Source: a virus
DNA length: 39,802 bases
Strand: one strand, 5' to 3'
Virus record (IMG/VR): IMGVR_UViG_3300008219_000030
Span: 1-39,802 of that record
Under the pieces are notes generated by a model. The model ran no database searches. It was not told where the DNA came from and saw only the letters and a list, made by a program, of their open reading frames with translations. The position numbers were made by a program, and so were the translations under genes. Below are positions 10,744 to 38,350 of the stretch, piece after piece. Position 1 is the stretch's first letter. The number at the start of each line of letters is the position of its first letter.

Positions 10744-11394
10744 TTAGTTAATACTTCCGCTTGGTAACTCTTTGCCCATCTTTAAAACCTTAAGATTTTT
10801 ATCTAAAATCGCCCATCCAATGGCTTCTCTCGCTTTTGTTCTATCGATTATATCGATAGATACTTCTCTTAAATCCTTCGCAGGGCCAGAAGTTCCCCAA
10901 TTTCCTATATGGAATATTCTTCCATCTTGTTGTCTACATAGACACATCACATGGCTTACTATCTCACCATGTTCAGAAAGCCACGAAAAAATAAAAAGAC
11001 GTGGATAGAAGTTTCTATCTATTGCATGCGCAGCCCAAATAGCGAATTCATCGCAGTCTAGTGGTAAGTCAGGTTGACCGCCTCTAATCCGTATTCGAGA
11101 ACCGTGTTTATAAACATTCTCTCGGCTTACGTTGACAATGTGCTGGACGTAATTCGGGGTGCCACACATATCAAAAAGTTCTCGCAGGCCGTCCGGTTTC
11201 CATTCTAACATGTCCAAAGCACCTTGAACTTCCGTCAACGAGAGATCTTGGTCTACTTCAACCCCCTTGTATTTAGAAAGCCACGCAACTCTATAGATTT
11301 TGCTCCACACAACCCAATGATAAATTGCAAGTTTATATAATAATTTCGCAAATCTTTTTTTTATTTGATGCCAAAAAGCAGTAAAAAATTTCAT
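10744..11394 (-). CDS. Transglutaminase-like/papain-fold cysteine enzyme (putative)
   Basis: The 216-residue product has a basic amphipathic N-terminus (residues 1-40) that could bind membrane or nucleic acid, and a domain with the layout of bacterial transglutaminase-like cysteine proteases. The nucleophile block is LPLDCDEFAIWAAHAI (Cys114 at the start of a helix), followed by a strand with SHVMCLC (His148), then an acidic or amide residue in DGRIFHIGNWG (Asp157 or Asn165). In known families such a Cys-His-Asp/Asn triad performs peptide hydrolysis or amide exchange. It lies directly before the holin-like gene, so a peptidoglycan peptide or cell-wall target is one option. A protein-modifying or host-takeover role is the other. 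The start follows TAGGAGAAATAA. Confidence 0.55.
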   Translation of the reverse strand: MKFFTAFWHQIKKRFAKLLYKLAIYHWVVWSKIYRVAWLSKYKGVEVDQDLSLTEVQGALDMLEWKPDGLRELFDMCGTPNYVQHIVNVSRENVYKHGSRIRIRGGQPDLPLDCDEFAIWAAHAIDRNFYPRLFIFSWLSEHGEIVSHVMCLCRQQDGRIFHIGNWGTSGPAKDLREVSIDIIDRTKAREAIGWAILDKNLKVLKMGKELPSGSIN

Positions 11395-11403
11395 TTATTT
11401 CTC

Positions 11404-14400
11404 CTAGAAATTTGCATGAGCGTATCCATGTGAGTCTTTCTCAATAATGATCTGTTTATCAACCACATCCTTTAGTGTATCGAGATGTGAGATTAAAAGA
11501 ACTGTCTTAAACTCCGTCTTTATCATTTCAAGTAACCTAACAAATCCTTCCATATGTTCCTCGTCTAGTGACGTCGCGGGCTCGTCGAGAATAAATACAT
11601 CCCCAACCGGTAAAGTGCTAATTTTAATCAATGCCAATCGAATAGCCATTGAAGCGATCGTCTTCTCTGCTCCCGAGCCCATCTCAATCGGACGAGGTTC
11701 AAACTTTGGATGTTTAATCATAATATCAAGTTTTCTACCATCCTCTTCGAAGAAGACTTCAAAATTAACAATATTAGCTAAAATTTTTGAAACCTCTTCG
11801 TTAATGATGGGCAACCTCTTTTTAATAATATCGTAAGAAATGCCGTTGCTGTGCATGCATTTCAAATAAAGCTCGTAGCAAGTATATTCTTTTTGAAGAT
11901 TTTCTAGGTTCTGTTGTCTTTCCTCTAGTGATTTAACCTCTTGTTCGAGGGATCCCTTGGCTTTGAATAGAACAAGAAGATCTTCCTGCGCCGTCGTATA
12001 ATCCCTTTCAAGACCATATATGTCGTTCTCTAAAGAAACCTTCTTCTTTAGAGTTTTTTCTAAATGTTTTATAGACTCTTCATTCTCCTCATATTGCTTC
12101 CTGCTTTCTTGCAACTCGTTATGGCTGTGCATAAGCTGTAGTAGCTCGGACTTATTTTTTTCTACGTCAACCTTACTAATGTTAACCCTATCGGTGACAT
12201 TCCTCCTCTTATTAACTAAATCATCGTATTGCTTGAGGTAGGATTTAACTGCATCGGGTTCTAATTCCTCGACTTCTTCATCCACCTTGTTCTTAGAAAT
12301 GGAGAGGCCCGATATATCTACCGTAACAATTCCTAAATCATCTTTTGCTTTATAAGCATCTTTAATGAATTTGCAATGAGAATATTCAGAACCGCAGGGA
12401 ACTTCGGAAAGAAGCCTTACCTTACTTTCCGCCACGCCCTGTTTCTGCTCCAACAACTCTATCTCTTTTTCAAGAGATGAAAGCTCCTTAAACTTTTTAT
12501 CTATATTCTCAAGCTTTTCTTCATAGGTAGTAATATCAATCTTCGATAAATGCTTTTCCATTTTTACTAAGATTTTTTCGTCGGCAACAATGCTTTCATC
12601 TAGTCCCAGATTTCTATTTTTTAAAGCATCAATTTGATTTTCTACTTTCTTAAAATCATCGTTGATTTTTTTAATGTTAAGTATTTCTTGAGGAGAGGCG
12701 TTCAATTTTTTATTGGTTTCGTCGAGGGCTTCCTTTAAATTGCCTATACGCTCTTTCAATGCTTCTATTTGTCCCTTCTTTCTGTCTGCTTCTATCTCAC
12801 TATAAGTCAAATTAGACCTAGATTCTGTTATTTCGTTAACAAAGTCATGATCCTTAAGTTTGTTCAAGGCGCCCTTCGTATCCGCAGAATCCTCCTTAGC
12901 CAATTTGAACTTTTGATCGAAGATATCTAGATCTAAAAACTTGGCTAAAATCTCTTTTCTCTTAGTCGAGCCTTCACCAATAAAGGATAGAGATCCTAGC
13001 TGCGACGACAGGGAGGTAAGCAGGAAATCATCGATATTACCAAAAACGCGTCTAATATTTTTATCTGTCTCATTTCTATCGATTCCACTCATCTCCGTAA
13101 TTTCACGGGTTGTCTTATTCTTACGCGCAAAGCTAACATCTGTTTTTGCCTCAACAGTTTCCTTTCCCTTCAAGTTCTTTTTATATTTATCAGAATCCCT
13201 CGTAATTGTATACGTGTCTTTCCCGATATCTATCTCAATTTTACCATAACAAGATTCTTCATTTTGGTTAATGATATTGAGATTCTTCCTGTTGTTTTTC
13301 GAGGTGGTGTTGAACATGGTATAAAGGAGGCCATCCACAATACTAGATTTGCCAGAATAGTTTTTTCCAAAAATTCCCACTAGGCCTCGGAGTCTAGAAA
13401 AATTAATCTCATTCTTTGTACCGTAATTAAACAGGTTATCCCATTTGAACTTCTTCAACTTCCACTTTACGTTCCGCACAACCTCCTCAGTTTGTTCAGC
13501 CGCAACATTATATTTTTTATTTAAAGAAAATATTTCACTCAAAGTTTCCGGTTCCATCTGGTAGTCCTTCAAGAACTCCTCTATGATTTCCTCTTGTACA
13601 GATATGTCGCGCAGATCCTCATGCACAATATTGCCCGTAACTTCTTCTGCCGACGGGTCCATGTCCCCGCGATTAACAAATACTACCGATTCCGGTTTGA
13701 ACCGGGTCTTACAAACGTCAATCGCTCGTCGCATTCTTTCTAGCGTGAGGCTGTAATTGGCAATCAGCCTAATCCGGGCCTCTTGAGGTATATCCAAATT
13801 ATTAGGTATTTTTCCTTTACTATCCAATTCAATCGTAATAAACGGCTTCGGGTTTTTAAAGCTATAATGTTTGACTTTAAAATCCTCTTTATTGTCAATA
13901 TCCCAAATCAAAAATCCTTTATCATTAGATTCGGAAAAATTTTGCTGCACCGTAGAGCCGCAGTAACGGACGCGGCCATTGTTGTCGATTACCTGATTTG
14001 ATCGGTGGATATCACCAAGGAGTGCATAATCGAAGTCTTCGAAGATGTCTATAGGATGATCGCCATGGTCAAGCATAAAATCAACATCCGTCATCGAACC
14101 TTTAATACATCCATGATATAGAGCTATGTTCACCCTATCTAGGTCACTAGGTTCGTTCCAATTATCTTCATCAAAAATCGATAAGGCATTTAATGCAAAC
14201 CTATCATTAAGTAAAACCTCTTGTGAATCCTTTAAAAGATGTAGGTTAGGATGATCTAGGGATTTTACAATGGGGCTGATCGAGTCTAGCCTGCTACTAT
14301 TTTTAAGATTGCCATCATGGTTACCTAATATAATATACGTAGGTGCGATGTCCGCAAGATTTCTAAAGAAGTCCGAACACATTTGAACGAACTCCGGAGA

Positions 14401-14556
14401 GATTTGTGTTTTTGTATGTGCTATATCCCCGCAATGAATAATCACATCGGGCTTTAGCTTACGAAGTTTCTTGTAGACCTGGCCGAAAACCCCCCTGTAC
14501 TCTTTATGGTACTTAAGGTTGCGAATGTGGGTATCCCCAAAATGAGCGAATCTCAT
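11404..14556 (-). CDS. Mre11-Rad50 (SbcD-SbcC, gp47-gp46) single-chain fusion nuclease
   Basis: The complex processes DNA ends for recombination-dependent replication; in T4 gp47 and gp46 are separate. Here both are in one 1050-residue chain. Residues 1-240 are a calcineurin-like phosphodiesterase with all five blocks: FGDTHI (Asp8, His10), HCGDIAHT (Asp44), LGNHDG (Asn79, His80), YHGC (His148) and LGDIH (Asp182, His184). A cap region follows to about 340. The Rad50-type ATPase has Walker A GKNYSGKSS (397-405), a Q-loop near SSQLG, coiled coils at about 560-715 and 745-900 around the hook VPCGSEYSHC (Cys721, Cys728), the signature GSGAEKT (960-966) and Walker B VFILDEPATSLD. The frame is continuous with no stop or shift. 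The start follows GGAGG, and a promoter-like sequence lies upstream. Confidence 0.93.
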   Translation of the reverse strand: MRFAHFGDTHIRNLKYHKEYRGVFGQVYKKLRKLKPDVIIHCGDIAHTKTQISPEFVQMCSDFFRNLADIAPTYIILGNHDGNLKNSSRLDSISPIVKSLDHPNLHLLKDSQEVLLNDRFALNALSIFDEDNWNEPSDLDRVNIALYHGCIKGSMTDVDFMLDHGDHPIDIFEDFDYALLGDIHRSNQVIDNNGRVRYCGSTVQQNFSESNDKGFLIWDIDNKEDFKVKHYSFKNPKPFITIELDSKGKIPNNLDIPQEARIRLIANYSLTLERMRRAIDVCKTRFKPESVVFVNRGDMDPSAEEVTGNIVHEDLRDISVQEEIIEEFLKDYQMEPETLSEIFSLNKKYNVAAEQTEEVVRNVKWKLKKFKWDNLFNYGTKNEINFSRLRGLVGIFGKNYSGKSSIVDGLLYTMFNTTSKNNRKNLNIINQNEESCYGKIEIDIGKDTYTITRDSDKYKKNLKGKETVEAKTDVSFARKNKTTREITEMSGIDRNETDKNIRRVFGNIDDFLLTSLSSQLGSLSFIGEGSTKRKEILAKFLDLDIFDQKFKLAKEDSADTKGALNKLKDHDFVNEITESRSNLTYSEIEADRKKGQIEALKERIGNLKEALDETNKKLNASPQEILNIKKINDDFKKVENQIDALKNRNLGLDESIVADEKILVKMEKHLSKIDITTYEEKLENIDKKFKELSSLEKEIELLEQKQGVAESKVRLLSEVPCGSEYSHCKFIKDAYKAKDDLGIVTVDISGLSISKNKVDEEVEELEPDAVKSYLKQYDDLVNKRRNVTDRVNISKVDVEKNKSELLQLMHSHNELQESRKQYEENEESIKHLEKTLKKKVSLENDIYGLERDYTTAQEDLLVLFKAKGSLEQEVKSLEERQQNLENLQKEYTCYELYLKCMHSNGISYDIIKKRLPIINEEVSKILANIVNFEVFFEEDGRKLDIMIKHPKFEPRPIEMGSGAEKTIASMAIRLALIKISTLPVGDVFILDEPATSLDEEHMEGFVRLLEMIKTEFKTVLLISHLDTLKDVVDKQIIIEKDSHGYAHANF

Positions 14557-14582
14557 GTAGCCTCCATAATTGTGCTAGCTAG

Positions 14583-14612: not shown

Positions 14613-14918
14613 CTAAAGACTAGAGAGATCGCCTTGATCTTCAGACTGTTTCTGCCTATAAACAGACACTGCCGTCTTCTCACTAGAAACCCTCGCAAGC
14701 ATTCTAAGCCAAGATTTATCCCCCAAAGGAATGTCCGGGTCTGCTAACAGCGCGTCAAATTCAGATACTCCAGGGAATGTTCCCGCTTTATCCGTGTCAA
14801 AGGATGCCGCAGAAGCGGGGGCAGGAAATGTTCCTCTTTTATCAAAATCATTATTCTCCTGCATGGCTTGTACCTCTTCTTTGATTATTTGTTTTAATCT
14901 TGACTTTACAATTTTCAT
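14613..14918 (-). CDS. Small protein with N-terminal IIKEE peptide (first of pair)
   Basis: The 101-residue product has unknown function. Residues 1-19 (MKIVKSRLKQIIKEEVQAM) nearly repeat the start of the upstream gene product. The remainder is mostly disordered and contains an internal repeat, KRGTFPAPASA then KAGTFPGVSE, and a short helical part (DKSWLRMLARVSSEKTAVSV). The start ATG overlaps the upstream stop as ATGA, with AGAGGA as SD. The N-terminal peptide ends in I-K-E-E, which fits the gp21-type cleavage consensus (I/L)xE. A packaged internal protein is therefore one hypothesis. Confidence 0.68.
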   Translation of the reverse strand: MKIVKSRLKQIIKEEVQAMQENNDFDKRGTFPAPASAASFDTDKAGTFPGVSEFDALLADPDIPLGDKSWLRMLARVSSEKTAVSVYRQKQSEDQGDLSSL

Positions 14919-15316
14919 TGTTTTATTCCTCTCGATTTTTGCAACGCTGCGCGGCGCATATTCATAAATTGTAGTTCACCCTGCTCTTGATGTCCTAAAA
15001 CTCTCTGGAGTAAGTCTGCTGCTGTTCCAGCGTCTTTTAAAGCTCTGCTAGTAGCGGGGCTCGATTCTCCCGCCAGCATCTTTTCTATGTTGCCAAGAAG
15101 ATACAAGACGTCATTAAGATGCTCAATCTCTTCCGGCATCGCCGTCCCGGCGTATACCCCTTCATTGACCTCTTCTTCGCCCTCTTCTTTTGCGAAGATT
15201 GGACTATCTGTCAGTGGGCGCGGTGCTTTAAAGGCAAATCCTATTTTACTTCCAAATATCACTTCTTTTATCTCCTCTTTAATGATCTGATTAAGTTTTG
15301 ATTTTGTAATCTTCAT
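14915..15316 (-). CDS. Small protein with N-terminal IIKEE peptide (second of pair)
   Basis: The 133-residue product begins MKITKSKLNQIIKEEIKEVI, matching the downstream neighbour at most of the first 16 positions although the rest of the two proteins differs. A linker with Phe/Pro and an acidic stretch (KEEGEEEVNEG) leads into a helical domain (about residues 60-115; MPEEIEHLNDVLYLLGNIEKM, with the preceding Ala-rich start). The tail is basic (FMNMRRAALQKSRG). The start follows TAGGAG. It is coupled to the next gene by ATGA. Function is unknown. The shared leader on otherwise unrelated bodies argues for a targeting signal rather than common ancestry of the whole proteins. Confidence 0.68.
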   Translation of the reverse strand: MKITKSKLNQIIKEEIKEVIFGSKIGFAFKAPRPLTDSPIFAKEEGEEEVNEGVYAGTAMPEEIEHLNDVLYLLGNIEKMLAGESSPATSRALKDAGTAADLLQRVLGHQEQGELQFMNMRRAALQKSRGIKQ

Positions 15317-15327
15317 TGAGAAAACTC

Positions 15328-16266
15328 CTAGATACTTTGGATTCTTCTCAATAAATAGTTGGAAGAGTTTATAAACGTAGCGTTTTTCTTGCGTTTTTCG
15401 AACTCCTCCTTTGGCATTTCCCCGATGTCATTATACGGAGCCACGTCCAATTTCCTAACCTCTATTCCATATTCAAGCAAATCCTTGATTAATCTCATGG
15501 CCTTCTTCTCCGCGTCCGGGTCGAGCGCCACCAGAACTGGTGTGTCGTTCTCTACAATTTTAGTGAAGAGACGAGATTCCTGTCTGAGCGTTGACCCCAG
15601 GATGGGAACAGAATTCTTTCCTGCTTTTATTGCATCGAAGGCGCCTTCAACAATTATAAGCTCCTCATCCCATTCAAGATAAAGCTCATTAAAAATGATA
15701 TCTTTACTTACAGGTGGGTTCTTATATTTCATATAATCATTCGTGTACGTCCTGGCAATAAAATAATTACAATACCCCTCTGCATCAAACGAGGGCAGAA
15801 TAATCCGATTCTTATATTCGCCTTCTTGGCAATAGCCAATCTTCCAATGTAGAATTTGCTTTCGTCCTATACCGCGAACATTTAAATAGGAACGCGCGGG
15901 TGTAGACGAATAGGTTTTAGAAGAGGTCAACGTTGCGAACTCTTCCGGCAAGTTGATGCGTTGCCGTATCTCCTGAACCTCCGGTTCTCCGAAAAGGTCC
16001 TTGGAAAAATCGCTCACGTCTACAGTGTCCTCGAACGATTTCCATTCATTCTTTTGTGGGAAAGTCCCGTACCTTCTTACAATCCTATATAAGCTCAGAC
16101 CAGACCAGTCACATATCCAGCACTTGAACGCGTTTTTATTAATGTTGACAGAAAGCTTTCGCTTATGGTGGTCGCAAGAAGGACAACTGAACAAATACTC
16201 GGAGCCGGATCGGTAGAACGAACCAAGAATGTCGGCTAGTATTTTTAGCTTTTTTCTCTCTGACAT
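15328..16266 (-). CDS. DNA primase, DnaG/TOPRIM type
   Basis: It makes RNA primers for lagging-strand synthesis. The 312-residue product has an N-terminal zinc-binding domain (CPSC at 28-31, then CWIC at 49-52, with His33/His34 available) and a central RNA-polymerase-like region including RGIGRKQILHWKIGY (131-145). The TOPRIM core carries the catalytic Glu in ELIIVEGAFDA (Glu207) and the metal-binding DxD in VALDPDAEKKA (Asp249, Asp251). It is close in length to T4 gp61 (342) and lacks a helicase domain; no helicase gene is in the window. The start overlaps the RuvC-like gene by 22 bases. Confidence 0.92.
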   Translation of the reverse strand: MSERKKLKILADILGSFYRSGSEYLFSCPSCDHHKRKLSVNINKNAFKCWICDWSGLSLYRIVRRYGTFPQKNEWKSFEDTVDVSDFSKDLFGEPEVQEIRQRINLPEEFATLTSSKTYSSTPARSYLNVRGIGRKQILHWKIGYCQEGEYKNRIILPSFDAEGYCNYFIARTYTNDYMKYKNPPVSKDIIFNELYLEWDEELIIVEGAFDAIKAGKNSVPILGSTLRQESRLFTKIVENDTPVLVALDPDAEKKAMRLIKDLLEYGIEVRKLDVAPYNDIGEMPKEEFEKRKKNATFINSSNYLLRRIQSI

Positions 16267-16778
16267 GAAGTGTACCCAGCCTTGGCGATTATCAAGGCGT
16301 CCGCGCGATCAAATGCCTCCGGCCTTGGATTGCCGTGACGGGTATACTCTACTGGGAACTTAGGTTCGTTGTCAAGGAGAAACCTCATCACACAATCCTT
16401 ACCTTTTTGTCCTCTAGGTACCTTGATTCCACATTCTTTTCGAGCAGAGGTGACGCCTACATACTCCGGTGTTACCTCAAATACCCGGTAAATAAGCCAG
16501 GAAACCATCCCATTAAACTTGGCTAGCTTCGTGATTGTTCCCGCAGACGACATCCCCGAGCTTAGATACATTAAAGATTGTTCGATAAAAATCTTTTTTA
16601 TTTTTCTCTCTTCAAGCTCTATCTTCAATTCCGTAGCAAACTTATGGATAAGCTTCGCTTTCTCGAATAGATCTTTTGGTTTTTTTGTGTTCCAAGAGAT
16701 TGTGGTGAAATACGATCCATCATCATTAAGCAGAGCTACCCCTGTAACACTAGTCGATATGTCTAGGCCCAAAATCAT
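16245..16778 (-). CDS. RuvC-like Holliday-junction resolvase
   Basis: This is a RNase H-fold nuclease that should resolve branched DNA before packaging. The 177-residue product has the RuvC acidic set in order: ILGLDISTSVTGVALL (Asp6), KKIFIEQSL (Glu66) and FDRADALIIA (Asp157, Asp160). Its length matches E. coli RuvC (173). In T4 this job belongs to the unrelated gp49, so this is a functional replacement if the call is right. It overlaps the primase gene by 22 bases and has no obvious SD in the 18-base gap upstream, so expression may depend on read-through coupling. Confidence in the fold is high and in the substrate moderate. Confidence 0.87.
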   Translation of the reverse strand: MILGLDISTSVTGVALLNDDGSYFTTISWNTKKPKDLFEKAKLIHKFATELKIELEERKIKKIFIEQSLMYLSSGMSSAGTITKLAKFNGMVSWLIYRVFEVTPEYVGVTSARKECGIKVPRGQKGKDCVMRFLLDNEPKFPVEYTRHGNPRPEAFDRADALIIAKAGYTSCQREKS

Positions 16779-26946: not shown

Positions 26947-28784
26947 TAGCAAATCTCTCCTACATCTTCCGCGTCATCCCCATAAATATCAATGATATTT
27001 GATTTTGTAGAGCCTTTCGGTGTTAAAAGTTTATCGTTACGGAGATTCTTCAGCCGATCTTGGTATTTACGGAAAAGTTCACTATCAATTTCCTCATCAA
27101 CGAAGACGTTCATATAATATCCAACATGTGTTTCGCTTACGGGGATAGAAGAAATTTCTTGTGCTTCTTTCGGGCTATACAATATTGAGGATCCCTTGGT
27201 GCTTGGATCCTCAGTAAAATAAAGTCTCTTCAACGTTTTAGAAGTTTGACCTTCCTCCCAGTTAACCAAAGACGTAAGAACATTCGCCGTGAACAAAGTC
27301 CCTTGTACTGCCGTGTCCTTTGTTACTACTTCAATAAATACAGCCTGATCTATTATAAATTGTTCATTGCTAGTGGATGGTATAGCATTAAAATTTGTTG
27401 TTACCCCAGCGACCGCGTTGACGAGGCTAAGATTAAAACTCTTTATGCTGTTACTAATGGCCTCCGCCAAATGTGTATTGGTCGAAACATCACTTGTGCC
27501 TATGATAGTTTTAGTGGAATCCGCTTTGGCAACAGAACTATCAGTTAAGGCGTTGTATATCGACCCGTCCCAGGTAGTAAATTTAATAGTTTGTCCATTC
27601 GACAAACTCCCTACTCCGCTTACTATAAAAGTGGCACTAGCTAGCTTTGTATTATTTTCCATTTCAAAAACTTCAATAGAGAAATTTTCATTTTCAAAGT
27701 ACGTATTTTTTTCATCGATCACCAATAGAAGATAATCGTTTTTAACTCTCAATGTGAGACCATCCATAATGGCTTGACTTTCCACAATATCTTCCTCAAG
27801 ATCATTGATGGTCTTTGAATCATCTAGTAAAGTTCTAATTTTTATATCCGAGCTAATTTGTGGGATTGGCAAATTGCCATATGTATAATATTTTGTATTG
27901 AAGTCGTCCAATTCCTTGTTGCCTGGGGGTGCCGCCATTAAATCTAAGGTCAGCGATCTAAGGCCTAGCTCTTTTTGGTTAAGAGACAGAATATTCCATG
28001 CAGGTAGTTTTTGATTTTTTAACTCTGCCGAGCCAAGTGGCATACCTTCATAATATATATCATGATCGAATTCTCTTCTGCCTTTCCCAAATTCCGTAGA
28101 CTCAAAGTTTGTTTCGTAAACAGGGAAAGATTTGACTCCCGACACCATAGAATAATACTTTATAACAGTAATTATGGGGTCCGTTCCCACCCATTTTTGT
28201 AGTTCATTGCTCCATTTGGGCTCTCCTTTTACCTCTACTTTAAATTCAGTTGAATTAGGTACGACGGCGCCGACGTCGGTGTTGTTGCCACCTCCGAGTT
28301 CTGAATAGAAGGACTTCCCCCCTTTTATTTTTGACCCTATTTCCGCGAGCATCCAAGGTATCCAGTCTTTTATATTTGGAAAGTTCTGCTTATAGTTAAT
28401 GTATTTATATTCAACGGTGGCTGCCTGGAGGACTTCGATCGTTTCAAATGTTTCGAATCCTACGTGATTCTTTACCGATACACTCATTAGAACACTTTGT
28501 TCCCCCTCCTCGATTTCTGCGAGGCTGTAAGTGTCCCCATAATCATACTGTGCTCTGCTCCGAACTGATTCCTTGATCCTTGTAGACGCATCGTTCTGGT
28601 TCTCCGCAATCGGGTTGGAAACGCTTGTAGCGTCAGTTGGAGTCATATATTGAGCGTCATAAATAACGTCATCATCAAAGAAGGCGTATTTTTTTGGTTT
28701 GAACATTCCTTTTGCCAAAAGCAGTTTGCCATATTGAGTTAGCTCAATATCTATAACTTCTTCTTTTCTGTTGAAGAATGTCAT
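26946..28784 (-). CDS. Virion protein with 'LTQYGK-DDD' N-terminal domain (long form)
   Basis: The 612-residue protein has an N-terminal 45-residue domain (EEVIDIELTQYGKLLLAKGM and then FDDDVIYD) that parallels the start of the 313-residue protein downstream. Residues 350-480 form a beta module (ATFIVSGVGSLSNGQTIKF, then AEAISNSIKSFNLSLVNAV) whose strand-helix pattern resembles the duplicated module of the 3189-residue giant. The remainder is acidic and ends YGDDAEDVGEIC with a terminal Cys. It overlaps the giant gene as ATGA and the next gene as TAATG, so this is a translationally coupled trio. A baseplate or tail-fibre connector role is inferred. Confidence 0.7.
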   Translation of the reverse strand: MTFFNRKEEVIDIELTQYGKLLLAKGMFKPKKYAFFDDDVIYDAQYMTPTDATSVSNPIAENQNDASTRIKESVRSRAQYDYGDTYSLAEIEEGEQSVLMSVSVKNHVGFETFETIEVLQAATVEYKYINYKQNFPNIKDWIPWMLAEIGSKIKGGKSFYSELGGGNNTDVGAVVPNSTEFKVEVKGEPKWSNELQKWVGTDPIITVIKYYSMVSGVKSFPVYETNFESTEFGKGRREFDHDIYYEGMPLGSAELKNQKLPAWNILSLNQKELGLRSLTLDLMAAPPGNKELDDFNTKYYTYGNLPIPQISSDIKIRTLLDDSKTINDLEEDIVESQAIMDGLTLRVKNDYLLLVIDEKNTYFENENFSIEVFEMENNTKLASATFIVSGVGSLSNGQTIKFTTWDGSIYNALTDSSVAKADSTKTIIGTSDVSTNTHLAEAISNSIKSFNLSLVNAVAGVTTNFNAIPSTSNEQFIIDQAVFIEVVTKDTAVQGTLFTANVLTSLVNWEEGQTSKTLKRLYFTEDPSTKGSSILYSPKEAQEISSIPVSETHVGYYMNVFVDEEIDSELFRKYQDRLKNLRNDKLLTPKGSTKSNIIDIYGDDAEDVGEIC

Positions 28785-31700
28785 TCTTTCTCGGCTCCTT
28801 CAATTTCCACGCCTGCTTCTATTCGCCCCAACTCGACCAATGAGAAGAAATCGTATGGCCAATTATAACTATGCTTGAAATCTTTTTCCGACGACTTAAA
28901 GAGGAACTGGAATCGATCGTCATCCTTAGAGTCGGCGGTAATCTTGAAATAATTATTTTCTGCCCTTCTCTTAACCTTGAAAACCATCCATCTCGTTTCG
29001 GGGGGCAGTGAGTTACCACCGAAGAATTCATGCTTGTCCATTACATGTTCAATCGTTACATCCTGTTTTTCCGCCGTTACAGATATCTTAGGCATGACTC
29101 CTTGCCAAATATCTGACAGGTCCTGCTGGTCCAGGTTGTGGTCAAATTCAAAGATATACATAACAAATGGATCCGTATTTAAATCCCCGTCAGTGAAATC
29201 CAATTGCGGAGGAATTACATATTTTTGCATCTTTTCATACATGTCCGTGATGCTAGTCTGCTGTAGATTGTCTGCTCCGTCCCCTGTGTTTGCCTTTTCT
29301 ACAGCAATGCCGCTTTTGTTCTTAAGTTTAATTTGGTAGTCATATGTTTTTTTATCAATTTTGAAAAAAGATTTTCCGATGTATTGAGTCGTTTCCAAAG
29401 AAACTAATTTTTTATTGTCTACAAAAGGAATAGCAACGATAGCTTCGGAGATATTTTTACTTTCGGCTATTTCACTAATTTTCTTCGTAGTGCTCGTAAA
29501 TCCGACCACATCTAATAAAGCATTGTTGCTACCATTTGACACTCCTATTTTTATACCGGATCCGGCTCCGGGTATTTGTCCATAGCCGGCCCACACGCTA
29601 CAAGGATATTTAGAATGATCCACCGTTCCACTTAGATTAAAAGCCGGGCATTCCCATTTTGTACCTATTGACCATACATCAAAAGCCGAATCAGCAGAGT
29701 CTTCAAAAGAAATTGGCAAGAAATCACCAGATGGACCGAGACCAGTTGAATAATTTACTTTTTTCACTCTTGTCCTTCCAAAAATATTCATTGAAGAGCT
29801 TAGTTGCATTGCAGCTTTTGATGCAGCATCCGAATAAGTGGTTTGGCTAAGCCCCGGTGACGTGTTGTCATATGAAGCCGTTAGGCCCGCAAATATCTCC
29901 GCTAACGTATATTTTTTAGTCTCCAATGCATTAAAAGTTAATGTCGCTTGAGATAGGCCATAAAAATAAGGAGGTGTGTACGGCGCGTAGGCTGGGTCGT
30001 CGAACTGTCGTAAATTCGTAGTGACACTATCGGCGTATGTGCTAGAGATGGGAGGTCCATATATACTTCCTCTGTTCCTAAATCTGCCCGAGCCGCCGGT
30101 ACCATGAGCACCCTCCGACATAATAAAATCATTAGTTTTATACATGTTCACTTTCATATCGTAAACTTCGCCCGCCTTCATTGTTTTGAATTTGCTTTCG
30201 GGAGCAGAAAAGAAATTTGTTAAAGATTCATCTTTTATAAAGAATTTAACCGACTCCGCAAAGAAGTTATGCATTGCTAATTCAAAATTTGGCTTCTTTT
30301 GAAGGTCCATCCAATTAAAATATGCATAAGATGATGTTGCAGTTGGCTCGGCAAGATAAACATCTGTTTGTGTGATAATTGTATCCTCGAAATTATCTTT
30401 AAAAGTAATCGTAGGCGGTACGTGTTTGGTAACATCAATTAGCGATTCAAATGGCATCCTGTATGATGGGTGGGTATTATAGCCAATTTTATAAACACTA
30501 TCATGTGAACCTGTCGGACGGTCGGTAAAACAAGGGAAATCCACAGCTATGCCAGATTTAATACTATTGAACATAATACCAGGAGCAAAAGACCATCTAA
30601 GCATAGAATTCAATCTTTCCGAACTTGGGTCATTGGTGTTCTCATTGGACCCGCTCAAATAGGGTCCAATGGACTGGGACATAAGCGACGCAAGCTGCGC
30701 CGTCCTAGTGGCAGGGTAGAACCCATTATATGGCAATAATTTTTTTACGCCCCTGCATGTCATTTTAATTCTTGAATCTTTCCCTATCTTTTCCCCAACA
30801 TGATTGTCTTGAATGACATCGAAATACTTCATAAACTCAGAGTGAGAGTAAGTGTTAAAAAAGTTTTCATTAAAGTCCGCAAACTCTCCTTCCGCACTAG
30901 ATGTGAATGCTGCTCCATCTAAACTAAAAAGCTTATTATTTTTACCGATAAACGATGCGTCCTGATTGTTTAGATAAAAATCCATGTGGTCGGAAATTCT
31001 AAACTCCGGTATGATCGTGTATTCTTTTGCAATTCTCCTAATATCCTCCGAGTAATCCTCATAAGAATCAAACCAAGGGCTTTTACTTGCGGAGAAAGCG
31101 GTTGTATAGTAGGGAAGGGCAAAGACGAGATTCTCCGGAGTGGGGTTTGTAGAAAAGTGTTGGTTATAGGGTCTCCTATAAAAGCACGCAGACGCGGAAT
31201 AGTGATATCCATAAGACCCAGTTCCGCTTGTAAATCCAGACGGCCCATCCAAAGGTGTTGTATATGGGTATTGTACTAGTTCACCAACCGCTCCCGGCAC
31301 CAGAGTCAAATCTAGGACGGGACCGTATTGTGTCAGCCCGGATGAATAGTCTGCCAGACCGGCGTCCAGAGGCCATACACTTAAAGCGCTATTCTTGTTA
31401 TTATAAATTGTATAGTTCTGCGAATTTACGGCGGCCCCGGCTGTCCTATCTCTAGCGTGAAGACTGTCTCTCCAAAATGTACGGTGGTCTCTACGATCAA
31501 ATCCATTATCACCAGTCCCTGACTGTTCCGTATAATTTTGACGCATACGGGATTTTGCCAAATATGCATTATTAGATTTTGGATAAATATTTTCACTATA
31601 ATTCAAAGAGACGAGCCCCGAAATAGGGTTTTCATCTCCAAGATCTTTATTTGTATAAACTTCATACAGTTTATCGTATACTTGCTTAGCCGCATTTTGT

Positions 31701-34700
31701 TCTGTGGCTAAAGCGTTGTTCAAATCTGTAGAAGCAAACTTGGATAGATTATTTCCATATGTATGTTTGATATCAAACTGCGCCTCTTCACCATCATAAT
31801 CTTTTGTAGTTACCCTATGGATTACTGGTCTGAATCTGCTAATTACCGGAGGCTCCGTAAAAGAACTAAGCCCTCTAACATTTGTCGAACTATTATGCTT
31901 AACTTTTTCTTTTCCAGAAGCGCCCGACCATTTGTATTGTGACTTGGCAAAGAAATCATTTTCTGCCGTGAAAGTAGAAATACGATTATTTTTAACCATG
32001 TCCCTCACTAGCGGACTCTTTGAATTTCCAATTTGTTGCCAACTAACGAATCCATAAGGTCCGTTTTGATGAAGCAACAATGCATTCAGGAGGTTCGTAG
32101 AACTCAATGAAGCAATAGATGTATTTAGAGATGCAGCACTTACAGTGTTGCTTCCCGTTAGAAGAGGAGCGTTGATCAAAGTATTAAGACCAACGAAGTC
32201 TACAACATGACTACTAATAGAAATTTCACTTGCACTCAAGAAAGTAAAATCAGAAACCTCTCCTAAAGAGCTAGAAACATAGCCCCTAGAACTGGCAAAT
32301 CCATAAGGAGCGCCATTAATATCTAACATCGAGGATGTAATCCAGTTGTAGTTTCTATCGCTTTGCGGTATTTGGTGTGTTACGTTATCATTATCATTAA
32401 TTGATCCAGACCCTACGCTAAGATTTATAGGTGGTAAACCATAATTAGCACCAGTAACAAATATTGTTCTTCTTGAGTTTCTGTTTGTCTTGTGGGAAGA
32501 AGCAAGCAAAAAGTTGGATTGTGAATAGGCATCTCCGGAGACTGTACTTCCTGTCGTTATCCCGTATGCAAGGGAATGGGCGCTGCCGCTGGCCCCAAGC
32601 CTCGTTCTAACAAACGAATTCCTATAGTTTAATTGATTGTATACAGAATACGTCTCTGACGCGGGGTCTAGAAATCCTTTACTAAGCACTTCTTTTCCGC
32701 CGGGGGCAGAGAATCTTTCTGCTATGACTGTTTTATTTGATCCCGTGGATCTATCGGGAAGTGCAAAATCTAAGTCGCCTGTTAAATTAAAGTTCTCCGC
32801 ATATTGACTGTTGGCCCCCCCTCCTCCAGTAGAGCCAGAAATAAACCACATATTATTTATGTCTCGGCCAGTTGTCATAACAACTTCATAATTTCTTTCG
32901 AAATTGCCCATGGTCGTTGTGGGATTTGTGAAGTTTAAATTACCACTTATGGCGGAGCCACTATGTTGGTAAAACGAAATATTTCTAATATTAACGGCTC
33001 TTTTCGCTCCTGGCAGTCTGGTCCTTGTTCCTCTCGCAAAGTGGATATTGACACTATCCACCGGAACTATCGTAATTTGCCCCGCAGTCGTTACTAAATT
33101 GTACCCTTCGGCTCTTGAATAGGCATCATCTAAATTATTAGATTGATCAGGCTTGTTTAAACCAACATTTTTATATTGGCGCCCCCCGACAAATCTCTCT
33201 GTAAACACGCTCTGTAGCGGAGACTCCAGTTCGTTGTTGGAAATATCATTGCCAAAACTAATTTGAGTTCCCGGTAATGCAGTATTAAATAAAGATAGGT
33301 AACCGCCTAGGGGCTTTCCGCTATCATGTTCAGAACTTGCACTATAGAGCATAAATGGCAACAACATTTCGCTGCCACTAGCGATATAGGAATCGGGGGT
33401 ATTCTCAATATTAACTTCTATTATCTTTTTCTTTTTTAATAATTCGGTAGGAATGATCTCTTCTATGTATACTTTTCTCATATCAGAGATATTTGTACTC
33501 TTTACTATAATTTGCTTGTTTGAACCAAAATGTAATAGGCTTGGTACGGCAAGCATCCCTTTCTTGCCTGCGGGCATTTTAACGCCGCCGCCAATTTGTT
33601 TTGTTGTCATGCTCGTACTAAACACAAACGGCTTGCTCTGAAGGTCTTGATTACTACTTTGGTAAACTTTAAATAATTTTTGTCTAGCAACATCAACAAT
33701 AGGATTGCCCGTCTTAGCATACTTCGTTTTATCAACTTTATTTTTCCACCAAAGAATATGATAATCTTGATCTGTGCTAGGAGGGGAGAGCACCAGAGGG
33801 CCTGCCAAAAACGGATTTGGTTTTGGATGGAACCCTTCGTATGGCTCCATCCGCGTATCCAAAATTGTAATACCACCATCGTTCTGAGTAAAATCTATAT
33901 TCGGCTGAAGTTGTCCTGACGACTCCGGCTCTGTAAATTTGGAGTCGATGGTAGGAAATTTATTCCTATATTTATTTCTTTCAAGGGCGTGACTCTCAAT
34001 AACAGTTTTGATTCCCTTATTAATATTTGCGGAAGCAGGAACCAGATTCATAATCATAGTACCCAACGACTGGTCTACCCATTTATAGTAATCAATAAAT
34101 TTTTCTATGTCAGGAGTGTTGCCTAATCTCTCAAAGAAGATTTGCTTTAAAAATGAAAGTCTCTTGTAATCTTGCCTATATCTCTCTTCATACCGACCTA
34201 TTAAAGCACCGTAGTCCCTAATTGAGGAAAAGAAGTTCAATATCTGTTCTGTTAAACCTTGATACATGTTCTTTTCTATGGAAGTAAAAAACGTTATTGG
34301 CTTTTGATCTCTATAGAAATTGTCATCGTCAAAATTTAAAATTGATATCATATCTTCCGAATACAGTACTTCCGGGAGTTGTTTCCTTGAGTCTTCTAGG
34401 TATTCTACTGAAACAAACGAAGACGTCGTGGCCGGGAATCCATACCCAGCGGCACCGTTCGTGACATTAATTACATTTCCAAGCCATCCATAATCCTTTT
34501 TGTTATCGATAGATCCAGAAGTGATATCGTATACTTCTATCTCACCCGAAGAATTAGAACCAGTGATAAGCTCGAAATCCCAATCAAGAGCAAGGGTTTT
34601 AATTTTCGGGATGAAGACGTTTGTTGAGCCACTAGGAGATGCAGAGCCTGTTTGGAAAACAAACGCATTGTTCGCAGGCTGACTTACTCCGTAATTATTG

Positions 34701-37700
34701 CTATCCAAAGCATGAGCTTTGATCTCCTCATTGTTAAGATGAGACATCCAAGCCTTTACGGAGGCGATCTTTACATCCGAGGGAACACTAACAGTACCTG
34801 TAAAATTAGTTCTACTCGCCCCAGCAAAAAGTCGTTTTGCAGCGGACATAAATCCTCTGCCGTGCGCGTTACTAACCGACTCCGAAACGTGGAATTCATT
34901 CTTTACTATGTCTTGTATGTTGTTGATTCCATAGAACTCAACCATGTATGTATCGGCGGTGACAACAGTTCTATTGTCGAGAGTAGCTTGTGGATATTTT
35001 GTTGGGGCAATCTTGACTGCAAAAGTCCAATTAGAATTATCGTAGACGTCATAAAAAACATCAGTCTCTAGTTTTCCGCTAGCCAGCAAAGAACTGGATA
35101 GCTGAAAATGTGCGTGTCTCCCGTCTTTTACACTCTTTACTGAACGTACTCCAAACGCCCAATCGTCCCCAGCAGCGTTATGTGCCCAAGTGGTATCAGT
35201 TGGAGAATCTGGTCTAGCCGAATGCGCTCCGAAAATAGAAGACGTCAACGGATAATTACCCTTAAATTGCACTGTATCCGGTTCTGGAATGTACGGGAAA
35301 AGAACGTTACTTTCGAACGTAGAGCCAAGCCCGTTCGCCTCTTGCTGCATCGTAGGGATATTGGAGGCTGACAGGAACGGGAGCATTGGATGTGATTCTA
35401 GTTTTAAACTATAAAATCTATAGGGTCCGAGTGTAACCCCATCGTATGCAGTGAGATTGGGGACCCCCGAGCCTGAGTATGCCTGCGCGTTGGCCCCGAA
35501 TTTAATTTGGGTCGGTGTGGCATCGAAGGGGCCACCGTTAATGACCTCCGCCATCACGTCACTAAATTCGTCGTCGGTGGCTTGTTCTTTAATCCATATC
35601 TCGTTAGTAGTTGGATCTGACGCAGCCCACGGGCCGGCCTCCTTTTCAACAATAGTGAAGTTTATATTATAGGGTTGTGGGACGGTTAGTGTGAAACCTC
35701 CATCTGGTGTTTGCCCGACCGCTCTCAGCATATATGCCGATCCCGTATCGGTTGTAAGAGTTTTAATAGAATTAAAGTAATCTCCCGTTCCAGCAACGAA
35801 AGAAGCGGCTACCGTCCCGGTCTGTTGATAAACAGTGGCAGCGCCCGCATCTACAGAGCTAAAATCAAGGAAAGTCTTCTTTACTGTTGAATCATAGTAT
35901 TCATCGTCAATGGCAAATGTAATATTATTGGCAAATGTATTAATTTTTATCAGGTCTTGGTCAACACCAAAACAATGCATAAGATTTCTAAGAGACTTTA
36001 TAGTCCCTTTCGATTTCATTATTGTAAGAAGATTATTATAAATGTTCTTATAAATTAGATTTTTAATATCATCTAAACTTTGAGAATGCGTCTTGTCATT
36101 ACTCATCTGTAAGAATTTTTCAACTATCTCGGCATCTACAAATATCTCCGAAATGTCGAATCCGACTCCTTCTAATAGATCTTTTGCAATTGGCATTTCT
36201 TTATTCGAATCCGATAGGGACCCCGAGGTGTACCTGACATCTTTAATCTTGTTGACTTCACTAATCATGATATGTAATTCATCAAAGTAGCTAGCCATAA
36301 TTTGTGTTAGATGTTTAAGAGCAGGGGTTTCTTCTGCTTCCTCTGTAATCCAAGCTGGTAGCGAATGGTAGATAGAGGCATTATTGCTATGGTCGTGGTT
36401 GATCCCTTCTTTTATTTTGGTCTCTATCAGTGCTTGTACGTCTGGATGTCGTTCATAGATTATTGGGTCTTTGAATTCTGCGCTGGACGCGCTCGACTCT
36501 ACAATCGCAGAACTAGTGGACCTCATGTCAATCGGTAACGCGCTCCCGGTGGAATCTGTATTAACGTACCCTGTCCATGTGCCATTAGTTATTCTACCCG
36601 AATAATCAAGGACCATTGAATCTACGCTGGCGGTTTGTGTTATTCCTTCGTTGAATTTGTAATAGACACCCAGGTCTACTGCATTCCCATCCGCAGTTGA
36701 CCCACTATAATAGTATTTGATATCATCAGTGTTTGTACCACCCCCGATCTGCCGTTTCCAATATCTACCAATTTGCTCCGATGTTCTCTCTTTTCTCCAA
36801 AAGCGGAACTCATCGAGCGCACCACTTAAGGCTCCGTATCCACGATAATCGGGGCTCAATGGCACATCCGGTGACCCCGATGGTGACGTAATTAAAGAAC
36901 CTATTTGCGCTATCATCGTCCCTGTTATGGAAGACACGGAAGATCCAGTTATTACCTCTTCGTTTAGGGCTCCGTCAACATAAAGCCTAGCGCGAGTGTT
37001 ACTCCCCGTGTTAGCGAAGCTAAACGCGTAGTGGTGCCACGCTGAACTGGTGATTGGCACGTCAGAGCCAAGTGCAATTGTGGTTTCGCCTCCCAATTGT
37101 GATGGTTGGGGGTCAAAAGCACCAGAAGTGTTCAAACCAGAACCCGACATCAGAGTAACGTAAAAAGATGAGCCCGAGGTGATTGGAGAAACACAAGTGG
37201 CGATTCTAAGGCGCCCATACCCTGGGTTGTCAGTGGCCAATCTTAAACTATAATATCTATAAGATCCGACAGTATTTCCGTCGTATGCAATGAGATTGGG
37301 GACCCCCGAACCCGAGTAAGCCTGTGCGTTGGTTCCGAATTTAATTTGGTTGTTCGATTCTGTAGATGGACCCCCGTTAATGACCTCCGCCATTACGTTA
37401 CTAAAATCATCGTCGGTGGATTGTGTTTTAATCCATATTTCGTTACTCCCAGGGCTTCCACCGCTCCAACCGAACGAGGATTTTTCAACAATAGTAAAGT
37501 TTATATCAAAGGGCTCCGGGGCTGTTAATGTGAAGCTACCGTTTATGGTTTGTCCGACCGCCCTTAATATATCTACCGAGCCCGTATCAGTTGTAAGGGT
37601 TTTACTAGAATCGAAGTAATCTCCCGTCCCGGCAGTCAAGGTGGCGGCTATGGTTGATCCTGTCAGCTTTGTCCACGAACCGCTATTCCACAGATCAAAC

Positions 37701-38350
37701 ACTACTTGAGTAGGAGACTCCGCTCCTGTCACATAAGAATCTTTTCTAAGCCAGAACTCAACCGTAACACCGTCCGTTCCGTTAAATTCAAGATTTGATG
37801 TTCGATTGGTATTAGAATCATAATAGTTTGGGAGCGTATTTGCGGATCCGGTGCTCTTTAGGTCTCCACTTAATGTCTCTTCTCCTCGAATTTTGCTCGG
37901 ATGCGGGCCGCCTTTTAGGAAAATATATTGTGCATAATCGTTGTAAGCATATGGATGTGTAAATTTTTCAAAGCTCCCCGCTCGCCCTCCTAGTGAACCA
38001 GTCCCTAGAAAGTTAATATATCCATTTGTTCTAGGATAATGATTTTCAAAAATATACTTATCGATTAAAAGGGACGTTTGGTCCCACTCCATTTTTTCTC
38101 TCAAGGAGCCATCATATGGGTATTCCCTGTAGATCCTCTCGATAGAATCTTGGTAATAACGAGCAGCCGATCCATAACGAGCAAAGTTTTTAGGATCAGA
38201 GTAGTCTATTTGAGGCAATATCTTTTTAGCCTTATTTAGATAAGTTGGTATATAAGCAGCGGATTCAACTTCTTGTTCTAAATCTTTACTACTTTTTTTA
38301 GTCAAGATTTGACTAAACTTATCTTTTTTAAACAGATCTTTTAAGCTCAT
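28781..38350 (-). CDS. Giant 3189-residue tail/baseplate protein with LamG-like domain and duplicated module
   Basis: One uninterrupted frame of 9.57 kb. Residues about 190-530 form a LamG/concanavalin-like jelly roll: VTVEFWLRKDS at the start, SSAWHHYAFSFANTGSNTR then LYVDGALNEE, and GALDEFRFWRKERTSEQIGR at the end. This fold commonly binds carbohydrate or surface ligands. A module of about 138 residues (about 232-368) interrupts it and recurs at about 843-984. Residues about 640-800 are helical and end with MKSKGTIKSLRNLMHCFG, which resembles the KGT block of P2 gpI-type baseplate proteins. The remaining 2200 residues are Ser/Tyr/Asn-rich beta sequence without recognisable motifs. ATGA overlap links it to the 612-residue gene. 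A baseplate-anchored, host-contacting protein is the best inference. Confidence 0.8.
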   Translation of the reverse strand: MSLKDLFKKDKFSQILTKKSSKDLEQEVESAAYIPTYLNKAKKILPQIDYSDPKNFARYGSAARYYQDSIERIYREYPYDGSLREKMEWDQTSLLIDKYIFENHYPRTNGYINFLGTGSLGGRAGSFEKFTHPYAYNDYAQYIFLKGGPHPSKIRGEETLSGDLKSTGSANTLPNYYDSNTNRTSNLEFNGTDGVTVEFWLRKDSYVTGAESPTQVVFDLWNSGSWTKLTGSTIAATLTAGTGDYFDSSKTLTTDTGSVDILRAVGQTINGSFTLTAPEPFDINFTIVEKSSFGWSGGSPGSNEIWIKTQSTDDDFSNVMAEVINGGPSTESNNQIKFGTNAQAYSGSGVPNLIAYDGNTVGSYRYYSLRLATDNPGYGRLRIATCVSPITSGSSFYVTLMSGSGLNTSGAFDPQPSQLGGETTIALGSDVPITSSAWHHYAFSFANTGSNTRARLYVDGALNEEVITGSSVSSITGTMIAQIGSLITSPSGSPDVPLSPDYRGYGALSGALDEFRFWRKERTSEQIGRYWKRQIGGGTNTDDIKYYYSGSTADGNAVDLGVYYKFNEGITQTASVDSMVLDYSGRITNGTWTGYVNTDSTGSALPIDMRSTSSAIVESSASSAEFKDPIIYERHPDVQALIETKIKEGINHDHSNNASIYHSLPAWITEEAEETPALKHLTQIMASYFDELHIMISEVNKIKDVRYTSGSLSDSNKEMPIAKDLLEGVGFDISEIFVDAEIVEKFLQMSNDKTHSQSLDDIKNLIYKNIYNNLLTIMKSKGTIKSLRNLMHCFGVDQDLIKINTFANNITFAIDDEYYDSTVKKTFLDFSSVDAGAATVYQQTGTVAASFVAGTGDYFNSIKTLTTDTGSAYMLRAVGQTPDGGFTLTVPQPYNINFTIVEKEAGPWAASDPTTNEIWIKEQATDDEFSDVMAEVINGGPFDATPTQIKFGANAQAYSGSGVPNLTAYDGVTLGPYRFYSLKLESHPMLPFLSASNIPTMQQEANGLGSTFESNVLFPYIPEPDTVQFKGNYPLTSSIFGAHSARPDSPTDTTWAHNAAGDDWAFGVRSVKSVKDGRHAHFQLSSSLLASGKLETDVFYDVYDNSNWTFAVKIAPTKYPQATLDNRTVVTADTYMVEFYGINNIQDIVKNEFHVSESVSNAHGRGFMSAAKRLFAGASRTNFTGTVSVPSDVKIASVKAWMSHLNNEEIKAHALDSNNYGVSQPANNAFVFQTGSASPSGSTNVFIPKIKTLALDWDFELITGSNSSGEIEVYDITSGSIDNKKDYGWLGNVINVTNGAAGYGFPATTSSFVSVEYLEDSRKQLPEVLYSEDMISILNFDDDNFYRDQKPITFFTSIEKNMYQGLTEQILNFFSSIRDYGALIGRYEERYRQDYKRLSFLKQIFFERLGNTPDIEKFIDYYKWVDQSLGTMIMNLVPASANINKGIKTVIESHALERNKYRNKFPTIDSKFTEPESSGQLQPNIDFTQNDGGITILDTRMEPYEGFHPKPNPFLAGPLVLSPPSTDQDYHILWWKNKVDKTKYAKTGNPIVDVARQKLFKVYQSSNQDLQSKPFVFSTSMTTKQIGGGVKMPAGKKGMLAVPSLLHFGSNKQIIVKSTNISDMRKVYIEEIIPTELLKKKKIIEVNIENTPDSYIASGSEMLLPFMLYSASSEHDSGKPLGGYLSLFNTALPGTQISFGNDISNNELESPLQSVFTERFVGGRQYKNVGLNKPDQSNNLDDAYSRAEGYNLVTTAGQITIVPVDSVNIHFARGTRTRLPGAKRAVNIRNISFYQHSGSAISGNLNFTNPTTTMGNFERNYEVVMTTGRDINNMWFISGSTGGGGANSQYAENFNLTGDLDFALPDRSTGSNKTVIAERFSAPGGKEVLSKGFLDPASETYSVYNQLNYRNSFVRTRLGASGSAHSLAYGITTGSTVSGDAYSQSNFLLASSHKTNRNSRRTIFVTGANYGLPPINLSVGSGSINDNDNVTHQIPQSDRNYNWITSSMLDINGAPYGFASSRGYVSSSLGEVSDFTFLSASEISISSHVVDFVGLNTLINAPLLTGSNTVSAASLNTSIASLSSTNLLNALLLHQNGPYGFVSWQQIGNSKSPLVRDMVKNNRISTFTAENDFFAKSQYKWSGASGKEKVKHNSSTNVRGLSSFTEPPVISRFRPVIHRVTTKDYDGEEAQFDIKHTYGNNLSKFASTDLNNALATEQNAAKQVYDKLYEVYTNKDLGDENPISGLVSLNYSENIYPKSNNAYLAKSRMRQNYTEQSGTGDNGFDRRDHRTFWRDSLHARDRTAGAAVNSQNYTIYNNKNSALSVWPLDAGLADYSSGLTQYGPVLDLTLVPGAVGELVQYPYTTPLDGPSGFTSGTGSYGYHYSASACFYRRPYNQHFSTNPTPENLVFALPYYTTAFSASKSPWFDSYEDYSEDIRRIAKEYTIIPEFRISDHMDFYLNNQDASFIGKNNKLFSLDGAAFTSSAEGEFADFNENFFNTYSHSEFMKYFDVIQDNHVGEKIGKDSRIKMTCRGVKKLLPYNGFYPATRTAQLASLMSQSIGPYLSGSNENTNDPSSERLNSMLRWSFAPGIMFNSIKSGIAVDFPCFTDRPTGSHDSVYKIGYNTHPSYRMPFESLIDVTKHVPPTITFKDNFEDTIITQTDVYLAEPTATSSYAYFNWMDLQKKPNFELAMHNFFAESVKFFIKDESLTNFFSAPESKFKTMKAGEVYDMKVNMYKTNDFIMSEGAHGTGGSGRFRNRGSIYGPPISSTYADSVTTNLRQFDDPAYAPYTPPYFYGLSQATLTFNALETKKYTLAEIFAGLTASYDNTSPGLSQTTYSDAASKAAMQLSSSMNIFGRTRVKKVNYSTGLGPSGDFLPISFEDSADSAFDVWSIGTKWECPAFNLSGTVDHSKYPCSVWAGYGQIPGAGSGIKIGVSNGSNNALLDVVGFTSTTKKISEIAESKNISEAIVAIPFVDNKKLVSLETTQYIGKSFFKIDKKTYDYQIKLKNKSGIAVEKANTGDGADNLQQTSITDMYEKMQKYVIPPQLDFTDGDLNTDPFVMYIFEFDHNLDQQDLSDIWQGVMPKISVTAEKQDVTIEHVMDKHEFFGGNSLPPETRWMVFKVKRRAENNYFKITADSKDDDRFQFLFKSSEKDFKHSYNWPYDFFSLVELGRIEAGVEIEGAEKE
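35398..35823 (-). repeat. Intragenic module copy 2
   Basis: This stretch encodes about residues 843-984 of the giant protein, starting near GTVAASFVAGTGDYFNS and ending at YRFYSLKLE. It aligns with the copy at 37243-37655 over its full length. Long nearly identical DNA blocks include GAGATTGGGGACCCCCGA and CCGAATTTAATTTGG. Conservation at DNA level in both arms points to a fairly recent duplication or ongoing gene conversion. Confidence 0.9.
37243..37655 (-). repeat. Intragenic module copy 1, inside the LamG-like domain
   Basis: This stretch encodes about residues 232-369 (STIAATLTAGTGDYFDS to YRYYSLRLA). Shared landmarks with copy 2 are KTLTTDTGS, LRAVGQT, NFTIVEK, NEIWIK, MAEVINGGP and NAQAYSGSGVPNL. 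It lies between the first LamG strands and YGRLRIATCV/WHHYAF, so it seems to be inserted into a loop of that domain. Confidence 0.9.

Follow-up and report, generated by a model that had tools for sequence, protein, structure and literature searches.

The window analysed here is the whole of the virus record IMGVR_UViG_3300008219_000030 (39,802 nucleotides), and it encodes a single 1050-residue chain in which an Mre11-type (SbcD) nuclease runs directly into a Rad50-type (SbcC) ATPase. This fusion is genuine and very common in ocean phages. We consider it likely, with a probability of roughly 0.8, that the protein is a phage-borne representative of the Mimivirus R555 type of fusion and forms a two-chain counterpart of the M2R2 complex that acts as the equivalent of T4 gp46/gp47. 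The source is a marine T4-like phage, and the 39.8-kb contig carries T4-type portal, terminase, prohead protease and capsid genes by Pfam and PHROGs.

The fusion gene occupies positions 11404..14556 on the minus strand, a strand assignment absent from the initial annotation; all coordinates given below are on this strand. Its ATG is preceded, 4 nt upstream, by a Shine-Dalgarno-like GGAGG (14561..14565), and such a sequence is found at the gene's own start in 68 of 93 members. Both domains lie in one frame, which bears out the initial annotation's central claim of Mre11 and Rad50 fused in one chain. Pfam places Metallophos at residues 1-119 (2e-12) and SMC_N at 367-1040 (7e-14), while PHROG 100 (SbcD-like) covers residues 1-356 (3e-35) and PHROG 77 (SbcC-like) residues 210-1042 (4e-57). 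In the PDB, phmmer matched the first half to SbcD or Mre11 chains and the second to Rad50 of archaea and Thermotoga as well as to E. coli SbcC. The phosphodiesterase and its capping region (residues 1-300; 13657..14556; PF00149) are followed by an N-terminal ATPase lobe with Walker A at residue 397 (residues 364-545; 12922..13467) and a C-terminal lobe with the signature at 960 and Walker B at 988 (residues 902-1050; 11407..11853), as delimited by Pfam, phmmer and alignment. Between the lobes, the AlphaFold2 model places an ascending coil (residues 546-718; 12403..12921) and a descending one (residues 729-901; 11854..12372). All three ATPase motifs, for which our positions agree with those first annotated, and the antiparallel coiled coil of canonical Rad50/SbcC are thus present in the window protein.

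Many phages have split gp47 and gp46 genes in this order, so that loss of a stop could conceivably merge the two, and the join might then be a sequencing or assembly frame error uniting neighbouring genes. This we regard as practically ruled out. Among the loci fetched, 97 others, from different samples and with identities as low as 30%, share the full-length single frame, and nearly all of the partial relatives end at contig ends. Furthermore, residues 315-420, which include the joint, are free of insertions and deletions across 57 aligned members. The fusion therefore survives the frame-error test proposed in the initial annotation. The rarity implied there does not hold: such fusions were described in 2011 (PMC3175470), and although a scan of IMG/VR proteins gave 28 relatives, an alignment-based scan found at least 594 IMG/VR loci encoding them. 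Identity of the relatives to the window protein ranges from 30 to 79% (n = 92 compared). No close fused relatives were found on plasmids by tblastn with the window protein.

A second way in which the single chain might mislead is that the gene could yield two products, with a separate Rad50, initiated internally, made in addition to the full-length chain. The window sequence itself offers a candidate, ATG334, with a well-spaced AAGGA 7 nt upstream. However, a start codon occurs in this column in just 5 of the 57 members, and L001 (79% identical) has Thr there; nor is a conserved start with an SD-like sequence found elsewhere in the linker among the 57 members. We therefore judge internal initiation very unlikely, and the single fused product again stands against a challenge that the initial annotation had raised. 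Searches for a second, separate gp46/gp47 copy in large related contigs, using PHROG 100 and PHROG 77, did not reveal one. PHROG 100 gave exactly one match, in a fusion-length frame, in 14 of 17 large related records; two others had no match, and in the remaining one, the 735-kb LR756501, the match sits elsewhere. Searched with PHROG 77, each of six IMG/VR contigs had a single match, and there were additional weaker matches in Microcystis phage Mel-JY01 and additional matches in LR756501.

One of the two records lacking a PHROG 100 match is LR756508 (L030:2944-7169), a 484-kb uncultured phage in which the fusion gene is split inside the Mre11 domain by a 305-residue ORF. This ORF is tightly packed between the pieces, matches an HNH endonuclease (PHROG 1271) and a TnsA-like N-terminal domain, and looks like a mobile homing-type insertion. 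In two further loci the oddity lies at the other end of the gene: directly after the fusion stop, L005 has a 59-residue open stretch (L005:7588-7764) that resembles the fusion's own C-terminal end, and L025 likewise, as if the tail end had been duplicated. Matches in MAGs are probable binning or assembly errors. The chromosome of a WOR-3 bacterium MAG (L122; CP070664.1) contains a T4-like stretch with RuvC, primase and a fusion gene running into N, probably a misassembly.

The initial annotation had put the join near residues 340-375. The place was right, and the model narrows it to a tight connector of about seven residues. In the AlphaFold2 prediction (monomer, 57 sequences, mean pLDDT 81.7, pTM 0.47), the phosphodiesterase and capping region are followed by helices at 318-332 and 336-356, the connector, and the first Rad50 strand at 364. 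The helix pair (residues 318-356; 13489..13605; block pLDDT ~77-93) is a predicted Rad50-binding helix-loop-helix and lies at the site of the Rad50-binding domain of separate Mre11 proteins. The joint itself (residues 357-363; 13468..13488) contains the invariant pair R361-N362, and W365 just beyond it is also invariant in the 57 members. Mean column identity in the same alignment is 0.74 for residues 357-366 against 0.41-0.43 for the coils. A bridge of 9-12 residues was estimated to be needed between the Thermotoga Mre11 and Rad50 ends (PMC3175470), and the connector in the window is of that order or shorter. Such conservation of a short joint suggests that the usual Mre11-Rad50 contact may be kept, and argues against its having been swapped for a floppy tether. 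Since the model is a monomer with a low pTM of 0.47, the packing of the halves and their dimerisation are to be taken as putative. Structure searches with the model matched MRN and SbcCD in the PDB as well as giant-virus fusions. Within a viral library, the best matches were the fusions of Tupanvirus, Harvfovirus and other giant viruses, followed by that of Tenacibaculum phage pT24; the giant-virus matches span about 1250-1360 columns.

The Mre11 half and the Rad50 heads were placed on separate trees, from which R555 itself is absent, and these agree in their main branches. Both place 17 phage-type fusions on one side and the split pairs on the other, the latter comprising T4-like, SPO1-like, Campylobacter phage and E. 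coli pairs together with a fusion from a Deferribacter plasmid; pT24, the Deferribacter fusion and several split rows sit on long branches, and their placement is less sure. The fused or split state requires at least two changes in each tree. This pattern is consistent with a single old fusion in the phage group plus one or more independent events elsewhere, a history that would agree with the 2011 proposal of recurrent fusions (PMC3175470).

The nuclease half has kept most, though not all, of its canonical active site. The initial annotation described a complete phosphodiesterase, and the residues that it named (Asp8, His10, Asp44, Asn79, His80, His148 and His184) are at the positions given and invariant in the 57 members. 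An eighth residue, Asp182, is equally invariant and does depart from the canonical set: the metal-ligand position two before His184 reads GDIH rather than GHxH (codon at 14011..14013), so that one canonical metal ligand is Asp, not His. The same Asp occurs in 17 of 17 phage-type fusions tested, including those of Mel-JY01, pT24, LR756501 and LR756508, while each of the 12 split references, like the Deferribacter plasmid fusion, has His. At residues 43-47, the window has GDIAH, in which His replaces the third Asp of GDxxD; this His is absent from pT24 and LR756501. Both changes have been reported from Mimivirus R555, which has Asp242 at the position of P. furiosus His206 and the same His in its GDxxD motif (PMC3175470). 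Asp182 might alter or reduce nuclease activity. Its presence in every phage-type fusion tested is what would be expected if the nuclease half were inactive or re-tasked through the changed ligand, leaving the protein mainly an ATP-driven DNA tether. We think this improbable: Asp is itself a good metal ligand, and the invariance of the other catalytic residues, including the proton-donor His80, across the 57 members argues for kept catalysis. Our preferred reading remains an active end-processing enzyme. In a very common group of ocean phages, this enzyme is one chain with a changed metal ligand.

The hook at the coil apex is the part that may be new, both in having CX6C for CX2C and in its repeated switching within the phage group. 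The canonical Rad50 hook is CXXC (PMC6969161). In the window protein, Cys721 and Cys728 are separated by six residues in an apex loop (residues 719-728; 12373..12402) that the model places between the two long coil helices. The initial annotation had located the hook correctly at 721-728, though its C-X6-C spacing differs from the canonical C-X2-C. Pfam Rad50_zn_hook does not match the window protein, though the match of T4 gp46 to that model is itself weak. Among 99 aligned fusions we found 69 with CX6C, nine with CX7C, one with CX3C and 20 with CX2C, two of the last (L118 and L120) being doubtful scores in a stretch that lacks the usual flanks. Mapped onto a tree from which the coil was left out, hook type requires 11 changes, with at least nine for CX6C on well-supported branches. 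Some sister pairs, such as L006/L007 and L055/L058, have different hooks, and in them the surrounding coil is much less alike than the heads. Local replacement of the hook is nevertheless not established by these pairs, because L058 and L060, which share a hook type, diverge around it as well.

A wide hook as a trait of fusions alone was considered and rejected, since it also occurs in split Rad50-like proteins. In Moorella phage MTATph1 (L143), whose Rad50 is split, the hook is CX7C, and plasmid-borne SMC-family ATPases of Paraburkholderia and Polaromonas (L152 and L153) carry CX8C; relatives of the MTATph1 Rad50 could not be confirmed in IMG/VR. Our small literature search found no paper on wide Rad50 hooks, and one may still exist. 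As a speculative idea, to which we give little weight, the Rad50 hook could be a rapidly switching dimerisation module that has changed between CX6C/CX7C and CX2C at least nine times and whose type sets which chains pair. If so, hook type could, for example, keep the Mre11-Rad50 of co-infecting phages apart, and the wide hook would close the Rad50 ring in a distinct and uncharacterised manner. The switching of hooks provides a natural experiment on the purpose of the zinc hook.

The genes around the fusion suggest what it does. Upstream lie two conserved neighbours, a DnaG-like primase (15328..16266; PHROG 47; found in 84 of 97 related loci) and a RuvC-like Holliday junction resolvase (16245..16778; PHROG 159; 70 of 97), and a RecA-family protein is present in all six fusion-bearing phage genomes tested. 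Terminase and portal genes lie downstream, in a gene order that was compared by tblastn only. T4 gp46/gp47 generates recombinogenic 3' ends and holds DNA ends for recombination-dependent replication. Primase, RuvC and RecA are the gene set expected for such a role, and by analogy the fusion most likely resects and tethers DNA ends for recombination-dependent replication. In the mechanism that we propose, the fusion would dimerise through its Mre11 halves, ATP-engaged Rad50 heads and coiled-coil hook, giving a two-chain counterpart of M2R2. ATP-driven opening and closing of the heads would gate the nuclease, which would resect DNA ends and cut hairpins. The resulting 3' ends may then be fed to the phage RecA-type recombinase, leading to recombination-dependent replication as with gp46/gp47 in T4. 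The main effect of fusing would be 1:1 expression and assembly, and it is reasonable to suppose that the covalent link would fix this stoichiometry and may alter ATP gating. As an Mre11-Rad50 whose stoichiometry is naturally fixed, the protein is of interest for structural studies and single-molecule experiments.

Other nearby genes are less easily placed. Just downstream, a 216-residue ORF (10744-11394) has no Pfam or PHROG match and is found in 4 of 97 related loci. Two small neighbours (14613-14918 and 14915-15316) share an N-terminal tag, MKI-x-KS-x-L-x-QIIKEE, that also occurs in the related phages L001, L002 and L004 and is perhaps a common targeting signal. Farther away, a 3189-residue ORF (28781-38350) is possibly a large structural or adhesion protein; its sole Pfam match is to a concanavalin A-like lectin domain (Laminin_G_3) at residues 421-527.

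Compared with known systems, the window protein belongs to a viral fusion kind first described in 2011 and is mostly ordinary apart from its hook. The split pairs of T4 (gp47/gp46), S-PM2, HTVC008M and KVP40 are its two-chain equivalents and comprise the same two enzymes, encoded by adjacent genes in a T4-like structural gene setting. These pairs differ in being two chains, with GHxH and a CX2C hook, and form a separate branch in both trees. E. coli SbcD/SbcC has the same fold and motifs, and its head complex is among the PDB matches to the model, but it too consists of two chains, with a 1048-residue SbcC, a long coil and a CX2C hook, and is distant in both trees. Closer to the window protein are the full-length fusions of two cultured phages, Microcystis phage Mel-JY01 (WWT39521.1) and Tenacibaculum phage pT24 (BAV39141.1), which fall in the same group in both trees and share GDIH. 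Unlike the window protein, to which they are 30% and ~20% identical, respectively, both have CX2C hooks; their annotations read simply 'AAA domain containing protein' and 'DNA repair'.

Yoshida, Claverie and Ogata (2011; PMC3175470) reported thirteen Mre11/Rad50 fusions from Mimivirus (R555), a Bacillus phage, plasmids, bacteria and eukaryotes. The window protein resembles R555 in its single chain, its domain order and both of the active-site changes given for R555 in that paper, and it resembles the R555 type in its short joint after the Rad50-binding helices and its marine viral setting beside a phage primase. At 1050 residues it is shorter than R555 (1351 residues) and has a shorter coil, and the hook of R555 is not discussed in that study. 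The same authors noted a great abundance of R555 homologues in marine viral fractions and proposed that phages carry some of them, often beside primase genes, with the environmental fusion confirmed in only a few long sequences (PMC3175470). Our data go beyond these in providing many complete phage-borne genes with genome context, and complete genes in a T4-like setting confirm the 2011 proposal that the marine R555 homologues are largely phage-borne.
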